From positions 1-32,403 of the IMG/VR virus record IMGVR_UViG_3300030101_000543: 32,403 nucleotides of DNA; one strand, 5' to 3'. The notes under the pieces are model-generated. The model was not told the origin of the DNA. It made no database searches and saw nothing but the letters and a program-made list of their open reading frames with translations. Made by a program: the position numbers and the translations under genes. Numbering within the stretch: position 1 is the first letter of the stretch; the number at the start of each line of letters is the position of its first letter. Of this stretch, positions 1-32,403 are shown piece by piece. Origin of the DNA: a virus.

Positions 1-90
1 TGATTGGTTTACAGAAGAAACAAATGAAAATATTGAAGAACAAACAAAGACAAATGATAGACAAAGAAAAGAACAAGCAAAAAACAAAAC
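1..90. repeat. Left copy of redundancy A (matches 30819-30908)
   Basis: Bases 1-84 are identical to 30819-30902. At 85 the copies differ (c versus g); 86-90 match again and the sequences then diverge completely. The repeat lies inside the minor head gene and codes for the linker after the MuF domain. It shows that the window is longer than one genome unit, with an offset of 30,818 bases here. The identity stops abruptly where the variable C-terminal cassette begins. Confidence 0.97.
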
Positions 91-877
91 TCAATCATTA
101 GTTCCTAATGTTGCAATCGGATCATTGTTGAATAAGGGTAGTGATAAAATAAGAAAAAATTATGAAGATGAATTTAATTCTCAACTAACAGATCAACAAA
201 AAAATATTGTAAACAGGATTGAAAAACCTACAAGCATATCAAGAGGAAGTGGTAAATATCGTTATAGAACAGGTGAATTAGTAGCAGGTTCTAATGCAAA
301 ATCTAAAGTGCAAGGTGGACAGGGAGTGAAAAGTTTTGTTATTGCACATGAATATGGGCATCACATTGATTATGTCACAAGTGGTGTTAAACTAAAATTT
401 TGGTCTGCACTAAATGAAGATTTTGCAAAAGCTATTGATAAAGATAGAAGGAAATTTAAAGGACAAAATTTTAAGGATCTTAGAGGTATTTCATCAGATG
501 GATATTATATTATAGATAATGAAGAATTAGATACAATATTTAATGAATTAGCTACAAGAGAAAAAAAAATAATCACAATAACTAGAAGAAAACGAAAATA
601 TGAAGTTACCAGAAATATTACGGAATTAAAAGGAGATGGATATGCATCAGTAAGTGATATAATTGATGCTTTAACTAGGGGTAATTTCTCAAAAAAGTAT
701 GGAATGTGGGGACATGGTACTAGTTATTTTAACAAACAAGGCTATATCCAAATGGAAATATTTGCTAATTTATTTGCTATAAAACATAACGAAAAAGCGT
801 ATAATCTTGCAAAAAAATACATACCAAATACTGTAAAGGAATTTGAAAAAAGATTAAAAGAATTAGAAAGATTTTAG
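2..877 (+). CDS. MuF-type minor head protein, C-terminal part with putative zinc-metallopeptidase domain (allele 1), 5' truncated
   Basis: The frame is open from base 2 and continues the same reading frame as the complete homologue at 29884-31758, so this is the 3' end of the minor head gene cut by the window edge. A TTG at 125 is not a real start. The first 28 codons match the linker of the other copy (from its residue 313), after which the protein is unrelated in sequence. The visible part is 291 aa; the full allele would be about 603 aa. It carries HEYGH (bases 347-361), the HExxH zinc-binding motif, and a downstream MEIFANLF with a candidate third ligand Glu at 755-757. A WGHGTSYF motif lies between them. 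From memory this C-terminal arrangement also occurs on minor head proteins of other phages. Peptidase activity is inferred. It could be an injected effector or, less likely, a head-maturation protease. Confidence 0.85.
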   Translation, partial: DWFTEETNENIEEQTKTNDRQRKEQAKNKTQSLVPNVAIGSLLNKGSDKIRKNYEDEFNSQLTDQQKNIVNRIEKPTSISRGSGKYRYRTGELVAGSNAKSKVQGGQGVKSFVIAHEYGHHIDYVTSGVKLKFWSALNEDFAKAIDKDRRKFKGQNFKDLRGISSDGYYIIDNEELDTIFNELATREKKIITITRRKRKYEVTRNITELKGDGYASVSDIIDALTRGNFSKKYGMWGHGTSYFNKQGYIQMEIFANLFAIKHNEKAYNLAKKYIPNTVKEFEKRLKELERF

Positions 878-884
878 AATATTT

Positions 885-1091
885 ATGACATTAACAACAG
901 ATCAAATACAAATAAAATTAGCAGAGTGTCAAGAGTCTAGTGATTTTTATAATTTATATTTATTACATTTTGGAGAGGAAGTGCCAAAACAATATACGCA
1001 AAGTGTTGGAGATGAAGTTGAAATAATAATTGATGCACTAATTGACAACAAAAAACTATCAAAAGAAAAATTACCCGAAATTTGGGATTGA
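885..1091 (+). CDS. Small acidic protein paired with metallopeptidase allele 1
   Basis: A 68-aa acidic protein begins 7 bases after the minor head gene stops. I do not recognise a family. It is rich in Asp and Glu, has no signal peptide or membrane segment, and ends in KLPEIWD. The other copy of this locus has a different small acidic protein (59 aa, 31759-31938) in the same place, ending KIPEELQNLD. Both stop codons lie exactly 47 bases before the scaffold ATG. The matched replacement of this gene with the upstream peptidase domain suggests a cognate partner such as an inhibitor, immunity protein or loading chaperone. That role is inference. The start has only a weak ribosome site, so translation is probably coupled to the upstream gene. 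Confidence 0.75.
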   Translation: MTLTTDQIQIKLAECQESSDFYNLYLLHFGEEVPKQYTQSVGDEVEIIIDALIDNKKLSKEKLPEIWD

Positions 1092-1114
1092 AAAATCTAT
1101 AATTATTTTATACA
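1088..1114 (+). promoter_or_regulatory. Possible promoter ahead of the scaffold gene
   Basis: The 47-base gap before the scaffold start holds TTGAAA (1088-1093), a perfect TATAAT (1098-1103) and TATACA (1109-1114). TTGAAA to TATACA gives a short 15-base spacer, and TATAAT has no good -35 at 17 bases. The matching gap in the second copy (31939-31985) has the same length but a different sequence and lacks TATAAT. AAGGAG before the ATG is conserved in both. The promoter call is weak. Confidence 0.3.
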
Positions 1115-1124
1115 TCTAGCATAA

Positions 1125-1556
1125 TAAGGAGAATTATTATGTCTGACGAGAACAAAACGGAAACAGTACAGGAAGAAACAAAACAAGAAGAAGTAGTAGA
1201 ACAAGTAGAAGCTAAAGAGCCAAAAGAAGATAGCCAAGCATTGATTGATAAAACAATCAAAGACAGACTTCATAGACAGAAAAGAAGAACACTAGAAGAT
1301 TTGGGTGTTGCTGACATTGAAGAAGCAAAAGAGATTATTGCTAGATCCAAAGAAGCTGAAGAAAAAAGAAAACTTGAAGCAGGTAAGTTTGAGGAAGTAA
1401 GGCAGTCTTTAGTTGATAATCATAAGAAAGAATTACAAAAATTACAAAATGAATTACGAGATGAAAAGATTGACAAACAATTAATTCAATCAGCATCTAG
1501 TAATAAAGCAATCAATCCTAATCAAGTAAAAGATTTATTGAAAAATAATGTTCGAC
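1125..1556. repeat. Left copy of redundancy B (matches 31972-32403)
   Basis: This stretch covers the scaffold ribosome site and the first 139 codons. It matches 31972-32403 over 432 bases with five mismatches: 1134 (t/c, leader), 1179 (c/a, Thr to Lys), 1240 (a/c, silent), 1474 (c/t, silent) and 1553 (c/a, silent Arg). The offset is 30,847 bases, 29 more than for redundancy A, because the two cassettes between the repeats differ in length. The mismatches indicate two closely related genomes rather than one sequence read twice. Confidence 0.97.
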
Positions 1557-1849
1557 TAAATCAAGAAGGTAGAGCAGAAATACTTGATAAAGATGGAACA
1601 ACAAGATACAACAAAGAAGGCAAACCATTAACCATAGATGAGTTTGTTTCTGAGTTTATGACACAGAATGCACACTTTCAAGTTGCAACCCCTTCTGGGA
1701 GTGGAAGTGTTGGTAATGTGGGGAAGGTAAACGCACAGACCTTTAATTTGGCGGACTTAGACATGACTAATCCAGAGGATAGAAAACGATATGCAGAATA
1801 TCGAAAAGAAAGAAATTCTAAACCAACTGTGATTAATCTAAATAAATAA
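1139..1849 (+). CDS. Scaffolding protein (DUF4355/GP20-like)
   Basis: A 236-aa hydrophilic, strongly charged protein lying directly before the major capsid gene, which is the usual place for a scaffold. The N-terminus is Glu/Lys-rich, residues about 60-125 look like a long coiled coil, and the C-terminal third has a Gly/Ser linker followed by a charged, helical end (DPEDRKRYAEYRKER is typical of this group, except that here it reads NPEDRKRYAEYRKER). It would guide assembly of the procapsid shell and then leave. The AAGGAG site at 1126-1131 fixes the start. No separate prohead protease is visible nearby. Function is inferred from position, composition and resemblance to the phage minor structural GP20/DUF4355 group. 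Confidence 0.85.
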   Translation: MSDENKTETVQEETKQEEVVEQVEAKEPKEDSQALIDKTIKDRLHRQKRRTLEDLGVADIEEAKEIIARSKEAEEKRKLEAGKFEEVRQSLVDNHKKELQKLQNELRDEKIDKQLIQSASSNKAINPNQVKDLLKNNVRLNQEGRAEILDKDGTTRYNKEGKPLTIDEFVSEFMTQNAHFQVATPSGSGSVGNVGKVNAQTFNLADLDMTNPEDRKRYAEYRKERNSKPTVINLNK

Positions 1850-24502: not shown

Positions 24503-24804
24503 TGGCAAGACCAAAAGAATATAATATCAATCCAGAAGAAATAATTAAATTAGCTAGTTATGGTTGTACTAATACTGAAATAGCTGATTTCTATGGGTGT
24601 AGTGAGAACACTATAAGGCGTTATGGCGAATATCTGACAAAAGGTAGAAGTGAAGGTAAAATCAGATTACGAAAGATACAATGGCAGATAGCTGAAAAAG
24701 GAAATGCAGTCATGGGTATCTGGCTTGGTAAGAATATTTTAGGTCAATCAGACAATGGAATGATGGAAGATGATGATACACCATTACCATTTAATGTAGA
24801 GTGA
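24502..24804 (+). CDS. Terminase small subunit
   Basis: A 100-aa protein with an HTH (KLASYGCTNTEIADFYGCSE, then NTIRRYGEYL) and a helical second half (RKIQWQIAEKGNAVMGIWLG), the plan of terminase small subunits. It recognises packaging DNA and passes it to the large subunit. It is separated from the large subunit by a DNA methyltransferase gene, which is unusual. It overlaps that gene by 4 bases. Confidence 0.8.
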   Translation: MARPKEYNINPEEIIKLASYGCTNTEIADFYGCSENTIRRYGEYLTKGRSEGKIRLRKIQWQIAEKGNAVMGIWLGKNILGQSDNGMMEDDDTPLPFNVE

Positions 24805-25547
24805 TACAGCTTTACAATAATGATTGTTTTGATGTTTTTTCAAAAATTGAAGATAATTCTATAGATCTTATACTAACAGATCCACCATATGGCACAACAG
24901 CTTGTAAGTGGGATAGTATAATTCCATTTGATCCTATGTGGAAAGAGTTAAAAAGAATTATTAGAGATAGTGGGTGTATTGCTTTATTTGGTACAGAGCC
25001 TTTTAGTTCTAAATTAAGATTATCTAATTTAAATTGGTTTAAATATGATTGGATTTGGGAAAAAAATAAAATTCATGGATTATTTAAAAATCAACCAAGA
25101 AGATCTTTTGAAATAATATCAATTTTTTATAAAAAACCACCAATTTGGAATGAAATTAAAATTAAACGAACAGAAAAAGAATATAAATTATGCAAAAGAA
25201 CAAAAAACTCAAAAACAATAGGTTCAGTTCATAGACCAAATCAAGAATTTATTTTAATTAGAAAATCTCTTGAAGATCAATGGTATAAAAAACCTATAAA
25301 TATTTTACAGTTCAATAAAGATGATATTAGAAATGGCAAACAACACCCAACGCAAAAACCATTAGCTTTACTTGAATATCTTATTAAAACCTATACTAAT
25401 GAAAATAATATTGTTTTAGATTTTACTATGGGATCTGGTTCAACAGGAGTGGCTTGTAAAAATTCAAATAGAAAATTCATTGGCATTGAAAAGGATAAAG
25501 AATACTTTGAAATAGCAAAAACAAGAATACACAATGCCCTTATCTAA
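24801..25547 (+). CDS. DNA methyltransferase, beta-type (N6-adenine or N4-cytosine)
   Basis: 248 aa with a GTG start. The catalytic DPPYG motif is at residues 27-31, the TRD region lies between, HPTQKP is near residue 184, and the SAM-binding motif FTMGSGSTG follows near 207. Catalytic motif before SAM motif is the beta-class order. It would protect phage DNA from host restriction. The TRD-like middle is very AT-rich, more so than its neighbours, hinting at a different source. It overlaps both terminase genes, so it is read within the packaging operon. Confidence 0.88.
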   Translation: MIQLYNNDCFDVFSKIEDNSIDLILTDPPYGTTACKWDSIIPFDPMWKELKRIIRDSGCIALFGTEPFSSKLRLSNLNWFKYDWIWEKNKIHGLFKNQPRRSFEIISIFYKKPPIWNEIKIKRTEKEYKLCKRTKNSKTIGSVHRPNQEFILIRKSLEDQWYKKPINILQFNKDDIRNGKQHPTQKPLALLEYLIKTYTNENNIVLDFTMGSGSTGVACKNSNRKFIGIEKDKEYFEIAKTRIHNALI

Positions 25548-26757
25548 AGCACAAAAAGAAGTATTTACATCAGAGGCTAGGTTTAGAGTTCTTATTACAG
25601 GCAGAAGATTTGGTAAAACATTTTTGGCTTTGAATGAACTAGCTAAGTTTTCAAGATATCCAAGAAAAAAAGTCTGGTACATAGCACCAACCTATAGAAT
25701 GTGTAAAGACATAATGCTTGATCCATTGGTCGATAAAATGACAAAACATAAATGGATTAGCAAGGTAAACTATTCTGATCTTACAATATCACTTAGAAAT
25801 AAATCACTAATACAGCTTAGATCAAGTGAGAACTTTAATGCTTTGAGAGGCGTGGGATTAGACTTTATTTGTATTGATGAGTTTTCAGATGTAGATGAGA
25901 GAGCATGGTTTGAAGTTCTAAGACCAACATTATCAGATAAATCTAAGGAAGGATCAGCATTGTTTTTGGGTACACCTAGAGGATATGGTAATTGGAGTTA
26001 TAATTTATTTACAAAACATGAGTCTGATAAGAATTGGCAATCATTTCAATATACTACATTAGATGGTGGTCAAGTATCAGCAAACGAAATAGACCAAGCT
26101 AAGAATGATCTTGATGATAGAACATTTAGACAAGAATACATGGCTTCATTTGAGAAATATTCTGGGCAGATATATTATAACTTTGATAGAGAGCAGAATG
26201 TTATAGAACAATATGCACCTACAACTAATTCAATACACATAGGCATAGATTTTAATGTTGACCCCGTTTCAGCAGTTATATCAGAAGTAAAACAAGATAA
26301 CTTGTATGTGTATGATGAAATTGTCATTTACAGTAGCAATACTGACGAACTTGTTGAAGAAATCAATAATCGCTACTCTGGAAAACATATATTCGTATAT
26401 CCCGATCCTGCATCAAAGCAAAGGAAAACAAGTGCAGGTGGTAAAACAGATTTATCTATATTAAAAAACGCAGGGTATAATGTAAGAGTAAGGAACGCAC
26501 ACCCATTGATTAGAGATAGGATTAATGCAGTAAATACAAAACTAAAAAATGCAAAGGGAGTAAGAACATTATTTATTGCAAATAACTGTAAGAATGTGAT
26601 AAAGAGTATAGAACGACAAATTTATAAAGAAGGAACGAGTTTGCCAGATAAGGAAAACAATTACGATCACATGAATGATGCACTAGGATATTTAGTTGAG
26701 TTTTTATACCCAATCAAAAGAGATTTCAAACCCTCACCACCACAGAGGTTCAGTTAA
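25534..26757 (+). CDS. Terminase large subunit
   Basis: 407 aa. Walker A GRRFGKT is at residues 23-29, Walker B FICIDEF at 111-117, the coupling motif LFLGTPRG near 145, and the C-terminal nuclease has GIDFNVDP (about 238) and DHMNDALGY (about 382). It cuts concatemers and pumps DNA into the head. It is shorter than many large subunits but has all main motifs. Confidence 0.95.
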   Translation: MPLSKAQKEVFTSEARFRVLITGRRFGKTFLALNELAKFSRYPRKKVWYIAPTYRMCKDIMLDPLVDKMTKHKWISKVNYSDLTISLRNKSLIQLRSSENFNALRGVGLDFICIDEFSDVDERAWFEVLRPTLSDKSKEGSALFLGTPRGYGNWSYNLFTKHESDKNWQSFQYTTLDGGQVSANEIDQAKNDLDDRTFRQEYMASFEKYSGQIYYNFDREQNVIEQYAPTTNSIHIGIDFNVDPVSAVISEVKQDNLYVYDEIVIYSSNTDELVEEINNRYSGKHIFVYPDPASKQRKTSAGGKTDLSILKNAGYNVRVRNAHPLIRDRINAVNTKLKNAKGVRTLFIANNCKNVIKSIERQIYKEGTSLPDKENNYDHMNDALGYLVEFLYPIKRDFKPSPPQRFS

Positions 26758-28178
26758 TGGCAAGTTATAAAAGAGATTTTTTAACAGCTAGACATGATGA
26801 TTATGAGTCTAAATTTAATGATTGGAACTTTCATTTATTATCATATTTAGGTGGTCAAGATTATCAGAATGGTTATCTACTCAATAGATATGTTCTAGAG
26901 TCAGATGAGGAGTATATCAAGAGAATGAATAATACCCCTATTGATAATCATTGTAAGAATGTAGTTCAAATCTATTCATCATTCCTATTTAGAGTTCCAC
27001 CCACAAGAAACTATGGCAGTCTATCTGGTGATGAACAACTTAATAATTTTTTGAAAGATGCAGATTTAGATGGTAGATCCTTTGACAATATAATTAGAGA
27101 AATGCAAATCAATGCTTCTATCTATGGAACTTGTTGGGCAATCATGGATAAACCTGCTGTGCAAACAGAAACAAGAGCAGAAGAAATACAGCTTGATATC
27201 AGACCATATATATCTGTTTACACACCAGAGAATGTTTTGAATTGGCAGTTCCAAAGAATGATAAATGGTAGATATGAATTAGTATCACTAACACTATTAG
27301 AAAACTTACAAAATGATGTAGCAACTATTAGAGTATGGACAAAAGAAGATATATCTACTTTGATGGTCAAAGATTTCAACAAAGGATATTCTACATCTCA
27401 ACCAATACTTGTTGATGAAATGCCAAATATGATTAATGAGATACCTGCTGTAATTTTATACAATCAGAAGTCACAAAAACGAGGTATTGGTATTAGTGAT
27501 TTACAAGATGTAGCTGAACTACAAAAAGCTATCTACAATGATTATTCAGAAATAGAACAACTTATCAGATTATCTAATCACCCAAGTTTAGTCAAAACAC
27601 CTAATGTAGAAGCTAGTGCAGGTGCAGGATCTATAATTGAAATGCCAGAAGATATGGAACCAAACTTAAAACCATACATCATACAACCATCATCACAATC
27701 ACTTGATGGCATCATGTCTAATATTCAAATGAAAGTAGATGCAATCAACAGAGTCACACATATGGGATCAGTAAGAGGAACAGAAAAAACAATCAACTCT
27801 GGTATAGCTTTACAAACAGAGTTTGAATTATTGAATGCAAGACTATCAGAGAAAGCAGATTATTTAGAGAATGCAGAGGAACATATTTGGAGATTGTTTG
27901 CTAAGTGGCAAGATAAAGAGTTTGATGGTGAGATAGAATATCCAGACAGCTTTAATCTTAGAGATTATTCTGCTGATCTACAGTTCCTACAAGTAGCAAA
28001 AGCATCTGGAGTTTCTTCTGATACTTTTGCAAAAGAAGTAGATAAACAAATAGCAAGAGCAGTTGTTGAAGATGATGATAAATTAGCAGATATTGATAGT
28101 GAGATAGAAGCTAAACCAAGACCAATAGGACAGTTCTCAACACCTGCAATAGAGGGTGAAGAAGTTGCCGAAGGGTAA
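26757..28178 (+). CDS. Portal protein
   Basis: 473 aa after the terminase (TAATG junction). Portal patterns are visible: CKNVVQIYSSFLFR near residue 63, GISDLQDVAELQKAIYNDYS near 245, and a long helical stem (LNARLSEKADYLENAEEHIW). The acidic C-terminus is typical of the barrel end. It forms the dodecameric gate at one head vertex. The final 23 bases overlap a basic small gene in another frame. Confidence 0.88.
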   Translation: MASYKRDFLTARHDDYESKFNDWNFHLLSYLGGQDYQNGYLLNRYVLESDEEYIKRMNNTPIDNHCKNVVQIYSSFLFRVPPTRNYGSLSGDEQLNNFLKDADLDGRSFDNIIREMQINASIYGTCWAIMDKPAVQTETRAEEIQLDIRPYISVYTPENVLNWQFQRMINGRYELVSLTLLENLQNDVATIRVWTKEDISTLMVKDFNKGYSTSQPILVDEMPNMINEIPAVILYNQKSQKRGIGISDLQDVAELQKAIYNDYSEIEQLIRLSNHPSLVKTPNVEASAGAGSIIEMPEDMEPNLKPYIIQPSSQSLDGIMSNIQMKVDAINRVTHMGSVRGTEKTINSGIALQTEFELLNARLSEKADYLENAEEHIWRLFAKWQDKEFDGEIEYPDSFNLRDYSADLQFLQVAKASGVSSDTFAKEVDKQIARAVVEDDDKLADIDSEIEAKPRPIGQFSTPAIEGEEVAEG

Positions 28179-29252: not shown

Positions 29253-29843
29253 ATGAAAGTTCTAATAGCCTGTGAATATTCAGGGATAGTAAGAGAAGCA
29301 TTCAAAAAAAAAGGACATGATGCTTGGAGTGTAGATATTTTACCAACAGAAATAGAAGGCAATCATATTCAAGATGATGTTCTAAACCATATTGATAAAG
29401 GTTGGGATTTGATGATTGCACACCCACCTTGCACTCATTTATCAGTAAGTGGTGCTAGATGGTTCACACAAGGTTATAAACCTATTTCTTTAAGAAATGA
29501 TGCTATAAATTTTGTAAAAAAATTGTTTGATGCAAAAATAGAAAAAATTGCAATAGAAAATCCTATCTCAGTAATATCTTCATACATAAGAAAATCAGAT
29601 CAAACTATACACCCTTATCATTTTGGAGAACCACATATGAAAGCAACTTGTTTGTGGCTTAAAAATTTACCTAAATTAAAATATACAGATGTTGTAGAAC
29701 CAGAGTTTGTATATAGTGCTAAAGGAAGAAAATGGTCTAAATGGTTTTGGGAAACATCATGCTTACCACCTAAAGAGAGAGGCAAAGCAAGAAGTAAATT
29801 TTGGGTTGGTATTGCTAAGGCTATGGCAGATCAATGGTCATAA
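29253..29843 (+). CDS. C5-cytosine methyltransferase-like protein (short)
   Basis: 196 aa. ACEYSGIVREAFKKKGHDAW gives a SAM-binding start, AHPPCTHLSVSGARWF has the catalytic Pro-Cys, and AIENP replaces the ENV motif. C5-methyltransferases are usually over 300 aa with a target recognition domain; this one is too short to hold a full one. It may be a minimal enzyme or have another use. A promoter/leader copy lies directly upstream, so it seems to be its own unit inside the head genes. Confidence 0.78.
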   Translation: MKVLIACEYSGIVREAFKKKGHDAWSVDILPTEIEGNHIQDDVLNHIDKGWDLMIAHPPCTHLSVSGARWFTQGYKPISLRNDAINFVKKLFDAKIEKIAIENPISVISSYIRKSDQTIHPYHFGEPHMKATCLWLKNLPKLKYTDVVEPEFVYSAKGRKWSKWFWETSCLPPKERGKARSKFWVGIAKAMADQWS

Positions 29844-29883: not shown

Positions 29884-31758
29884 ATGGCAGACGCATTCAA
29901 AGACAGTTTCAAACAATTTGCAAATAAAAAACAGCAAATACTTTCAAGATTAGCTGATACTCACGAAGAAAGAATAATAAATACATTAAAGAATTTAGAA
30001 GATGAGATAATTGCTGATCTTACTAGATTGACTGATGGTGGTGTCAAACTCAATACTAGACTTGCAATAGAATTAAGACCAAACCTTAAAACATTAATAG
30101 AGCAAAACTTTTTAAAAGAAGCAGATGGTATTGTTTCTGAATATGATGAAATAGTAAAAGAATATCAAAGATTTATTAAGCCTTTACCAATACCAGAAAC
30201 ATTCAAAACACTTACAAAACCAGATCTAAGAGTCATCAATGAACTAAAGATACTTTCATTCTCTGGGTTCGAAGATGTAGGTAATAGATTTTTAGATACA
30301 ATAGCAAACGAAGTGTATCAATCTTCTGTGACAGGCAGACCATTCAACGAAATGGTTAAGAACATCAGAGGGCAGATTAGTGGTGTATACCAAAGATCAA
30401 ACGAGAACGCAGTTAATAGACTTGTAGATTATATAGATAAAAATAGATATTCAGAGAATGCACAGATTATTGCAAAAGTAAAAAATGCAAGAGAGATACT
30501 TCACACTAAATATGCTTCAGATATCCTAGGCAACAATATGAGAAGATATGCAGGGCAAATAGCACAAGATAGTTTGATGCAGTTTGATGGTCAGTTTACT
30601 TTATACAAAGGTAAAGAAGCAGGTATTACCAAGTATCAATATGTTGGAACAAATATTACTACAACCAGAGATTTTTGTAGAAGATATTTAGATAGAGTTT
30701 TCACAGAAGAAGAAGCTAGAGAGATATGGCAAGGATCATGGAGAGGTAAGTCTGGCACAGATCCATTTATCAATAGAGGTGGCTATAGATGTAGGCACAG
30801 TTTTATTCTGTATGATGATGATTGGTTTACAGAAGAAACAAATGAAAATATTGAAGAACAAACAAAGACAAATGATAGACAAAGAAAAGAACAAGCAAAA
30901 AAGAAAACACCAGAAAGAACATTCAATATAAATAACAATAAATTATATTCATCATTTGATAACAATAATGTTAATGAGTTTGGTAACATTATGAATAGTC
31001 TTGAAGGTCAAGAAATATCAAACCAAAAAATATCTAAGTTTATGGAAAAACATGGTATTACAGCATTATTTCTATCAAAACAAGTGACAGGTAAATCTTT
31101 CAGACAAAACGAGTTTAAAAAAGTTAATGAACAGTACAAAAAGAATATTCCAAAAGGTGAGAAAGCTACTTTGTATGCAAGAAATTATGATTTAGATTTA
31201 GAAGAAGCAGATATAAACAGATATCCAAGATCAAGAGTTAGTGGTTATGCTTCACCAATAAATAACGCACCTGTGGCTTGGATCACAGAAACAGACGATT
31301 TTACCAAAATTGATACTAAAATTTTACAAAAAAATACAGAGAAGGTTATAAATAGAACAAAAAATGGTGAAGGTAGATATGTTACAAAAGGAAAATTTGG
31401 AGAGAAAAAAAATGCAGATTGGTCATTTTTTACAGGTGCTACAAGTAGTGAAGAACAAAAAATAAAGACTATGCTACACGAAATTGGTCATCAAGTGCAT
31501 TTTTACGCAACTACTAATAATAATGGCTTATTCACAACTAATACATTTATGGATATTTATAAAAATGCACCAAAAGAACAAAGAAAAAATTTTATTTTAA
31601 CTAATTATCAACAAAAAGATAAATATGAACAACACGCAGAACTATTTACAGCTTATGCAACTAATAGAAAAGCATTAGAGAAATATAATCCAAGCCTTGT
31701 GGAATATATGGATAATTTACTAGACAAGGCAATAAACAGTACAACGAAAGGATATTAA
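29884..31758 (+). CDS. MuF-type minor head protein with C-terminal putative zinc-metallopeptidase domain (allele 2)
   Basis: 624 aa. Residues about 1-150 are helical. The MuF/SPP1 gp7-like domain covers about 150-312 (NITTTRDFCRRYLDRVFTEE, then GGYRCRHSFILY). The linker after residue 313 is identical to the start of the window until residue 340. Residues 341-624 are the variable part, with LHEIGHQVHF (HExxH at 532-536) and the candidate third ligand in QHAELFTAY (Glu586). MuF proteins enter the cell with the DNA in some phages and some carry C-terminal toxins; that this one is injected is inference. There is no separate prohead protease in the window, so capsid maturation is an alternative job, but the exchange of the whole domain between near-identical genomes fits better with an effector. 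Confidence 0.88.
   Translation: MADAFKDSFKQFANKKQQILSRLADTHEERIINTLKNLEDEIIADLTRLTDGGVKLNTRLAIELRPNLKTLIEQNFLKEADGIVSEYDEIVKEYQRFIKPLPIPETFKTLTKPDLRVINELKILSFSGFEDVGNRFLDTIANEVYQSSVTGRPFNEMVKNIRGQISGVYQRSNENAVNRLVDYIDKNRYSENAQIIAKVKNAREILHTKYASDILGNNMRRYAGQIAQDSLMQFDGQFTLYKGKEAGITKYQYVGTNITTTRDFCRRYLDRVFTEEEAREIWQGSWRGKSGTDPFINRGGYRCRHSFILYDDDWFTEETNENIEEQTKTNDRQRKEQAKKKTPERTFNINNNKLYSSFDNNNVNEFGNIMNSLEGQEISNQKISKFMEKHGITALFLSKQVTGKSFRQNEFKKVNEQYKKNIPKGEKATLYARNYDLDLEEADINRYPRSRVSGYASPINNAPVAWITETDDFTKIDTKILQKNTEKVINRTKNGEGRYVTKGKFGEKKNADWSFFTGATSSEEQKIKTMLHEIGHQVHFYATTNNNGLFTTNTFMDIYKNAPKEQRKNFILTNYQQKDKYEQHAELFTAYATNRKALEKYNPSLVEYMDNLLDKAINSTTKGY
30819..30908. repeat. Right copy of redundancy A (matches 1-90)
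   Basis: Identical to 1-84 and then one difference (30903, g instead of c) before the sequences part. This marks the left crossover edge of the variable cassette, inside the codons for the charged linker after the MuF domain. Confidence 0.97.
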
Positions 31759-31938
31759 ATGGCAATAGAATTACCAAAAGAGTTCGATCAAGCAGAATTA
31801 TTACTAAATCAAGATCCACTACCAAATAACATTATAGAACAACTTGATAAACTTAGAGCAAAATTAATAGATAGTGACAAAATTATTTTTGATGATCTAT
31901 ATGATAAAATACCAGAGGAGTTGCAAAATTTAGATTGA
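31759..31938 (+). CDS. Small acidic protein paired with metallopeptidase allele 2
   Basis: The ATG at 31759 follows the minor head stop directly with no gap. The product is a 59-aa acidic protein (MAIELPKEFDQAELLLNQDP at the start, ending KIPEELQNLD) with no signal or membrane part. It occupies the place of the unrelated-looking 68-aa protein at 885-1091, and its stop lies the same 47 bases before the scaffold ATG. I do not recognise it. The two ends (KLPEIWD and KIPEELQNLD) could be remnants of common ancestry. A partner, inhibitor or immunity role for the upstream domain is inferred. Confidence 0.75.
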   Translation: MAIELPKEFDQAELLLNQDPLPNNIIEQLDKLRAKLIDSDKIIFDDLYDKIPEELQNLD

Positions 31939-31971
31939 AAAACACAGTTTTTATATTAAATCTATAAATAT

Positions 31972-32403
31972 TAAGGAGAACTATTATGTCTGACGAGAAC
32001 AAAACGGAAACAGTACAGGAAGAAAAAAAACAAGAAGAAGTAGTAGAACAAGTAGAAGCTAAAGAGCCAAAAGAAGATAGCCAAGCCTTGATTGATAAAA
32101 CAATCAAAGACAGACTTCATAGACAGAAAAGAAGAACACTAGAAGATTTGGGTGTTGCTGACATTGAAGAAGCAAAAGAGATTATTGCTAGATCCAAAGA
32201 AGCTGAAGAAAAAAGAAAACTTGAAGCAGGTAAGTTTGAGGAAGTAAGGCAGTCTTTAGTTGATAATCATAAGAAAGAATTACAAAAATTACAAAATGAA
32301 TTACGAGATGAAAAGATTGATAAACAATTAATTCAATCAGCATCTAGTAATAAAGCAATCAATCCTAATCAAGTAAAAGATTTATTGAAAAATAATGTTA
32401 GAC
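31972..32403. repeat. Right copy of redundancy B (matches 1125-1556)
   Basis: 432 bases matching 1125-1556 with five differences, up to the window end. It carries the ribosome site and start of a second scaffold gene. Confidence 0.97.
31986..32403 (+). CDS. Scaffolding protein, second copy, 3' truncated by the window end
   Basis: 139 codons of the scaffold gene, differing from the copy at 1139 by one amino acid (Lys for Thr14) and three silent changes. It is the same locus from a related genome rather than an extra gene. AAGGAG is conserved at 31973-31978. Confidence 0.92.
   Translation, partial: MSDENKTETVQEEKKQEEVVEQVEAKEPKEDSQALIDKTIKDRLHRQKRRTLEDLGVADIEEAKEIIARSKEAEEKRKLEAGKFEEVRQSLVDNHKKELQKLQNELRDEKIDKQLIQSASSNKAINPNQVKDLLKNNVR

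Follow-up and report, generated by a model that had tools for sequence, protein, structure and literature searches.

Close precedents for the locus described here are found among phage MuF proteins that carry toxic C-terminal domains. In Jamet et al. 2017 (PMC5576092), 20% of MuF toxins are metallopeptidases, a small open reading frame (ORF) of less than 150 amino acids stands behind 89% of the toxin genes, and the toxins are described as exclusive to temperate phages. In pneumococcal and Pasteurellaceae prophages, IapK occludes the active site of Apk2 (PMC12226406), and in a Bacteroides prophage, Bsi binds Bxa (PMC11699363). The locus we examine lies in the marine phage record IMGVR_UViG_3300030101_000543 of IMG/VR, the whole of which, 32,403 bases, is the window referred to below. 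A MuF-like head protein gene there ends in an exchangeable, zincin-like C-terminal domain (CTD) and is followed by a small acidic gene. We consider it probable that the locus encodes a MuF polymorphic toxin and its cognate immunity (inhibitor) protein, the 2 genes being acquired, lost, and exchanged together as a single cassette.

The record contains the locus at both of its ends, which overlap. Of the 90 bases at 1-90, 89 are identical to those at 30819-30908, and the scaffold copies, compared from their ATG (1139-1556 and 31986-32403), agree at 414 of 418 bases (99%); between these matching flanks sit 2 different cassettes, called alleles A and B. We infer that the genome is circular or permuted and that the record, having gone round it, finishes in another allele of this locus, in which case the end overlap would reflect allelic variation at the population level and not 2 loci in a single genome. 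The gene order is portal, small genes and a DNA methyltransferase, head protein, small acidic gene, spacer, scaffold, and major head protein. A previous reading made from the letters alone (the sequence-only reading) had placed the 2 small genes in the same slot, and both ORFs are confirmed, at 885-1091 (68 amino acids) and at 31759-31938 (59 amino acids). The features are as follows.

2-877, plus strand: allele A, 3' portion of the gene for the MuF-like head protein, with the 5' end cut by the window edge; shared linker to about 86, then the A-type zincin CTD.
885-1091, plus strand: allele A small acidic gene, 68 amino acids, family A/C, predicted inhibitor/immunity protein; homologues stand behind A-type CTDs.
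1092-1138, plus strand: spacer of 47 nucleotides with a Shine-Dalgarno sequence before the scaffold gene, nearly identical to the empty-allele spacer.
1139-1849, plus strand: scaffold gene, the right cassette flank (phrog_206, E = 2.9e-19).
26757-28178, plus strand: portal gene upstream of the locus (phrog_145, 8.1e-62); the nearest annotated isolates are HTVC111P, 026P, 202P, and 112P, at 56-58%.
29884-30909, plus strand: conserved MuF-like N-terminal part plus linker, residues 1-342; hhalign 98.2%, E = 5e-14, to carriers bearing PF04233.
29884-31758, plus strand: whole head protein gene of allele B, MuF-like part plus zincin CTD.
30910-31758, plus strand: allele B zincin CTD, with HEIGHQVH at 31477-31500 and a conserved E.HAELF further on.
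31759-31938, plus strand: allele B small acidic gene, 59 amino acids, family B, predicted inhibitor/immunity protein; its ATG abuts the stop of the putative toxin gene (TAA ATG).
31939-31985, plus strand: spacer of 47 nucleotides, homologous to 1092-1138, of the subtype found with other cassette alleles.
31986-32403, plus strand: second, truncated scaffold copy, sharing 99% identity with 1139-1556; a repeat reading of the locus where the record ends.

To see how CTD and small gene assort, relatives with the same MuF N-terminus were gathered in one scan, to which scans of viral contigs with the A and B CTDs and a genome scan were added. CTDs of types A, B, and C, or none, occur on the same MuF N-terminus. 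Type A or C pairs solely with small family A/C and type B solely with family B. Profile matching gives 94 B-B, 82 A-A, and 4 C-C loci, or 180 matched loci with 0 mismatches, a count that includes repeated contigs (75 distinct CTD sequences for B, 59 for A, and 4 for C) and that is partly circular, because the small-gene profiles were derived from genes behind CTDs. Among the relatives sharing the MuF N-terminus, those whose CTD is complete and whose sequence beyond it can be read have a small gene of matching type, and in the viral contigs, wherever an A-type CTD is complete and the sequence after it is readable, a family A/C homologue comes directly behind it. No partner was recognised at 13 loci, for the most part contig ends, remote carriers from Clostridia, in which a small gene of similar pattern can be seen by eye after the CTD, or 2 unrelated secreted proteases, L168 and L169. 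These last match mainly at the HEYGHHID motif and have no such small gene, and so act as a negative control.

Given how the profiles were built, the independent tests are a search in the reverse direction and the empty alleles. Starting from the small families, the cognate CTD is directly upstream in 52 of 54 loci (36 A-A and 16 B-B). One exception, L280, is a contig edge. The other, L305, was considered as an orphan small gene and rejected: it is otherwise collinear with L157 downstream, and so represents a large deletion or misassembly and not independent assortment. At L305:181-621, an A-type small domain is joined in-frame to an N-terminus like that of a terminase small subunit (PF03592, 2.8e-4), and the large subunit, portal, and MuF are missing between. 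Among short-MuF relatives that lack a CTD and have the scaffold visible, 0 of 57 contain the small gene; 56 have a bare spacer of 43-77 nucleotides, in most of them 43-55. In the 57th, L028, an unrelated basic ORF of 70 amino acids occupies a MuF-scaffold gap of 333 nucleotides, the sole empty allele with an ORF there. The isolate HTVC111P has a short MuF of 330 amino acids with the scaffold directly after it and no small gene. The sequence-only reading had proposed a cognate pair, and named independent assortment in other genomes as what would contradict it. Examined in both directions, such assortment was not seen, and cognate pairing of CTD and small gene is therefore well supported.

The 2 genes also lie inside one exchange unit between shared flanks, which agrees with the claim that the small gene is swapped along with the upstream domain. 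When cassette and empty alleles are aligned, the left junction falls just after MuF ...DDDW, at about residue 315, and the right junction is the stop of the small gene (TTGAA), with the spacer beyond it homologous across all alleles. The exchange unit is the segment from the MuF linker to the small-gene stop codon. It had been pointed out that the 2 stops are equidistant from the scaffold, and both are indeed 47 nucleotides before its ATG; however, the equal spacing has no functional weight, because the spacer is a shared homologous flank that is present in empty alleles too. The allele A spacer is in fact close to those of the empty alleles, and that of allele B resembles those of other cassette alleles. 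For types B, C, and none, scaffolds of either class are found with MuF N-termini that share at least 80% identity, meaning that the cassette, its 2 genes together, moves without being tied to either flank.

Covariation of the 2 genes, which had been suggested as a check, is present beyond what the MuF carrier accounts for. The distance matrices of CTD and small protein correlate at 0.89 in both families, and the Mantel partial r controlling for the MuF N-terminus is 0.82 for A and 0.71 for B (43 pairs each; permutation p 0.0005). This bears on whether the genes might merely travel together, with recombination points outside both of them and no functional link. Both genes are within the cassette boundaries, and hitch-hiking might account for the linkage if only this phage group is considered. 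However, the same pairs recur in Mu-like prophages as well as in marine phages whose MuF carriers and flanks differ, at CTD identities as low as about 22-30%. With zero mismatches, the reverse search result, and the correlated divergence also opposing it, mere co-travel is scarcely credible.

The first approximately 315 residues of the head protein are conserved among relatives. The profile for MuF proteins carrying these CTDs matches its N-terminal part, as given in the feature list, and other carriers of these CTDs score PF04233 above the Pfam cut-off. The window head protein itself has no Pfam match, and a profile of Mu-like MuF alone does not match it. Judged by these profile matches, the carriers of these CTDs are MuF proteins. 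Apparent stop codons within the MuF matches of L078 and L079 were dismissed, being located upstream of the true start. The locus has several of the features by which MuF polymorphic toxins are recognised, namely a MuF N-terminus, an exchangeable CTD with an enzymatic motif, a small ORF dependent on that CTD, and a place in the head and packaging operon.

The A-type CTD has HEYGHHID at 347-370, with the gene's stop at 877, and the motifs SDI.DA, GHG.SY, and E.FANLF that follow vary little or not at all across 41 diverse relatives. In allele B, HEIGHQVH is followed by the conserved E.HAELF before the stop at 31758. HExxH is invariant in both CTD alignments (A4 and A6). Types A and B are barely related, with an hhalign score of 53% confined to the HExxH helix, and the third type that this MuF carries, type C, is distantly related to A (98.4%). 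ATLF (PF07737) matches are weak, the best being 3.7e-5 and in 3 of 41 members; those to Pfam M3 (PF01432) and M78 are also weak, with the allele B CTD giving weak PF01432 and ATLF matches. Foldseek places ATLF- and PPEP-like structures at the top for the allele B CTD, with E of at least 0.02 and template modeling (TM) scores of at most 0.37 across the CTD fold searches. A profile search of solved structures with CTD A gave spurious matches only, and an A-type CTD sought among isolate phages found no match. Membership in ATLF, peptidase M34, was accordingly rejected on the weak PF07737 matches and the non-significant fold matches (best E 0.02), and the CTDs are filed as zincin-like only. A sequenced isolate, Pseudoalteromonas phage HS6, carries a CTD of type B attached to a true MuF protein (L174:2011-3716, gp28/gp27) with a partner of 75 amino acids overlapping the CTD-gene stop, and is a possible laboratory model.

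An HExxH domain on a head protein adjoining the scaffold might also be a maturation protease that acts on the phage's own head proteins, with the small gene delaying cleavage until assembly is complete, and an inhibitor would be required either way. But the CTD and the small gene are missing from most close relatives and from HTVC111P, so the CTD is not required for head maturation, and 2 barely related zincin types interchange at a single site. We regard a maturation role as highly improbable.

Both small proteins are acidic, as the sequence-only reading had stated, with a computed isoelectric point (pI) of 4.36 and net charge of -8 for the 885-1091 product and a pI of 4.11 and net charge of -9 for the 31759-31938 product. 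The 2 are unrelated by profile comparison (0.2-1.2%), which rules out a single family, and the C-type small proteins belong with A (94.8%) to form family A/C. The family A pattern is Y...F(G)..P......I..AI..N(K), and close members of family B have A..LL...P.P..I...LD.LR...E...FD.LYD; family B reaches Mu-like prophages. Searches of Pfam, PHROGs, and NCBIfam gave no significant family, and matches by sequence to the Protein Data Bank (PDB) were at chance level only. In close-relative scans, P0002 alone found nothing and P0004 alone one further allele, on 2 contigs; alignment queries were required. The CTDs are of opposite charge to the small proteins, having median pI 9.3 (A), 9.5 (B), and 9.0 (C) with net charges of +5 to +9, versus 4.6 (A), 4.1 (B), and 4.7 (C) with net charges of -6 to -9 for the partners. 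Non-acidic exceptions make up 14% of distinct A-type small proteins. The CTD gene and the small gene either overlap or adjoin (median start offsets +3, -3, and -3 nucleotides), suggesting that their translation is probably coupled.

In the mechanism that we propose, the C-terminal part of the head protein is an exchangeable effector domain of the zinc-metallopeptidase kind, for which the small acidic gene would encode the cognate inhibitor. During particle production, the acidic protein would bind the basic peptidase domain and keep it silent, thereby protecting assembly, while the peptidase is built into the head along with MuF. The virion peptidase would then enter the next cell with the DNA, and could act on a target there while the inhibitor is initially lacking. 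Cognate pairs were folded as single-chain fusions in which glycine took the place of the stop, using the A-type relative L105, in which the genes abut in frame, and allele B of the window. The mean predicted local distance difference test (pLDDT) values are 93.8 for L105 and 88.0 for allele B, the predicted template modeling (pTM) score is 0.83 for each, and the small protein forms 3 helices.

Several points weigh against the toxin-immunity interpretation. Besides the circularity in the forward count, the fusion models are single-chain and include cognate pairs only, and their confidence does not locate or establish docking or specificity. No integrase or repressor was recognised among the approximately 30 ORFs of the window that were scanned, many short ORFs being outside that scan, though MuF toxins have been published as exclusive to temperate phages; elsewhere, these cassettes are carried by Mu-like phages or lie in contigs of bacterial genomes. 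Further, the presence of the small gene only with a CTD equally fits a chaperone or a loading factor. This last is the main rival: the small protein would be a dedicated partner that aids folding or solubility of the CTD, or steers it to the procapsid, instead of blocking the active site. The pairing, the coupling, the opposite charge, and the joint absence with the CTD all fit it just as well, and the small gene adjoins the scaffold gene. On the other hand, most relatives have a MuF protein with no small partner, so MuF loading itself requires no extra factor, and the small proteins of the characterised MuF toxins are inhibitors (PMC12226406 and PMC11699363). We consider a chaperone or loading role unlikely, and infer that the partner is more probably an inhibitor or immunity protein.

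As to the surroundings, the nearest isolates by portal and MuF are the Pelagibacter phages HTVC111P, 026P, 202P, and 112P. The window has 2 DNA methyltransferase genes, at 24801-25547 and 29253-29843 (phrog_67 and phrog_757), the second being placed after the portal region and before the MuF gene. At that position before MuF, HTVC111P has instead a gene on the opposite strand.

A MuF toxin with an immunity protein is a known kind of system. What is new is the 2 immunity-like families, which are absent from Pfam, PHROGs, and NCBIfam, and apparently also the setting, among pelagiphage relatives with no recognised integrase. These deeply conserved, unnamed families are candidate inhibitors of zinc-peptidase effectors on phage head proteins, and range from seawater phages to Mu-like prophages, with family A/C also in Clostridia. 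Having A, B, C, and empty alleles as a natural series for a single head protein makes it testable whether MuF effectors are delivered with the DNA, what the peptidases target, and why an apparently non-lysogenic phage carries a toxin and antidote. A more speculative proposal, to which we give only a small chance, is that the cassettes act between phages, by allele-specific exclusion of a co- or superinfecting phage with another allele. If so, a cell would make the inhibitor of the infecting allele only and would not neutralise the head-delivered peptidase of another, and cells infected by an empty-allele phage would have no inhibitor; several cassettes and an empty allele could then be maintained in one marine phage population without lysogeny.

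Among known systems, the polymorphic-toxin zincins (Tox-MPTase1-5, ALF-type; Zhang et al. 2012, PMC3482391) similarly have C-terminal HExxH peptidase domains, the known ones being on delivered toxins; the available part of that source gives no MuF carrier and mostly no immunity family, and the CTDs here match ATLF (PF07737) only weakly. With the MuF toxins of Jamet et al. 2017 (PMC5576092), the locus shares the MuF N-terminus, the variable C-terminal effector, the small downstream ORF, and the head-packaging location. It differs from them in being carried by pelagiphage relatives with no recognised integrase and in the occurrence of 2 cassette alleles, plus an empty one, at the same site, and the available part of that paper contains no description that we found of conserved partner families or strict pairing. 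In Bxa/Bsi (PMC11699363), Bxa is likewise a MuF fusion toxin encoded in a head operon, Bsi is the small immunity protein that binds it, and homologous small genes are always with the toxin; unlike here, the effector is an ADP-ribosyltransferase, and a hydrolase serves as an additional immunity protein. In Apk2/IapK (PMC12226406), the MuF toxin is again followed by a small gene, whose product is a specific inhibitor that diverges with its toxin. Apk2, however, is a (p)ppApp synthetase with a second, enzymatic immunity gene (Aph1), whereas here a zincin effector is accompanied by a single small gene.
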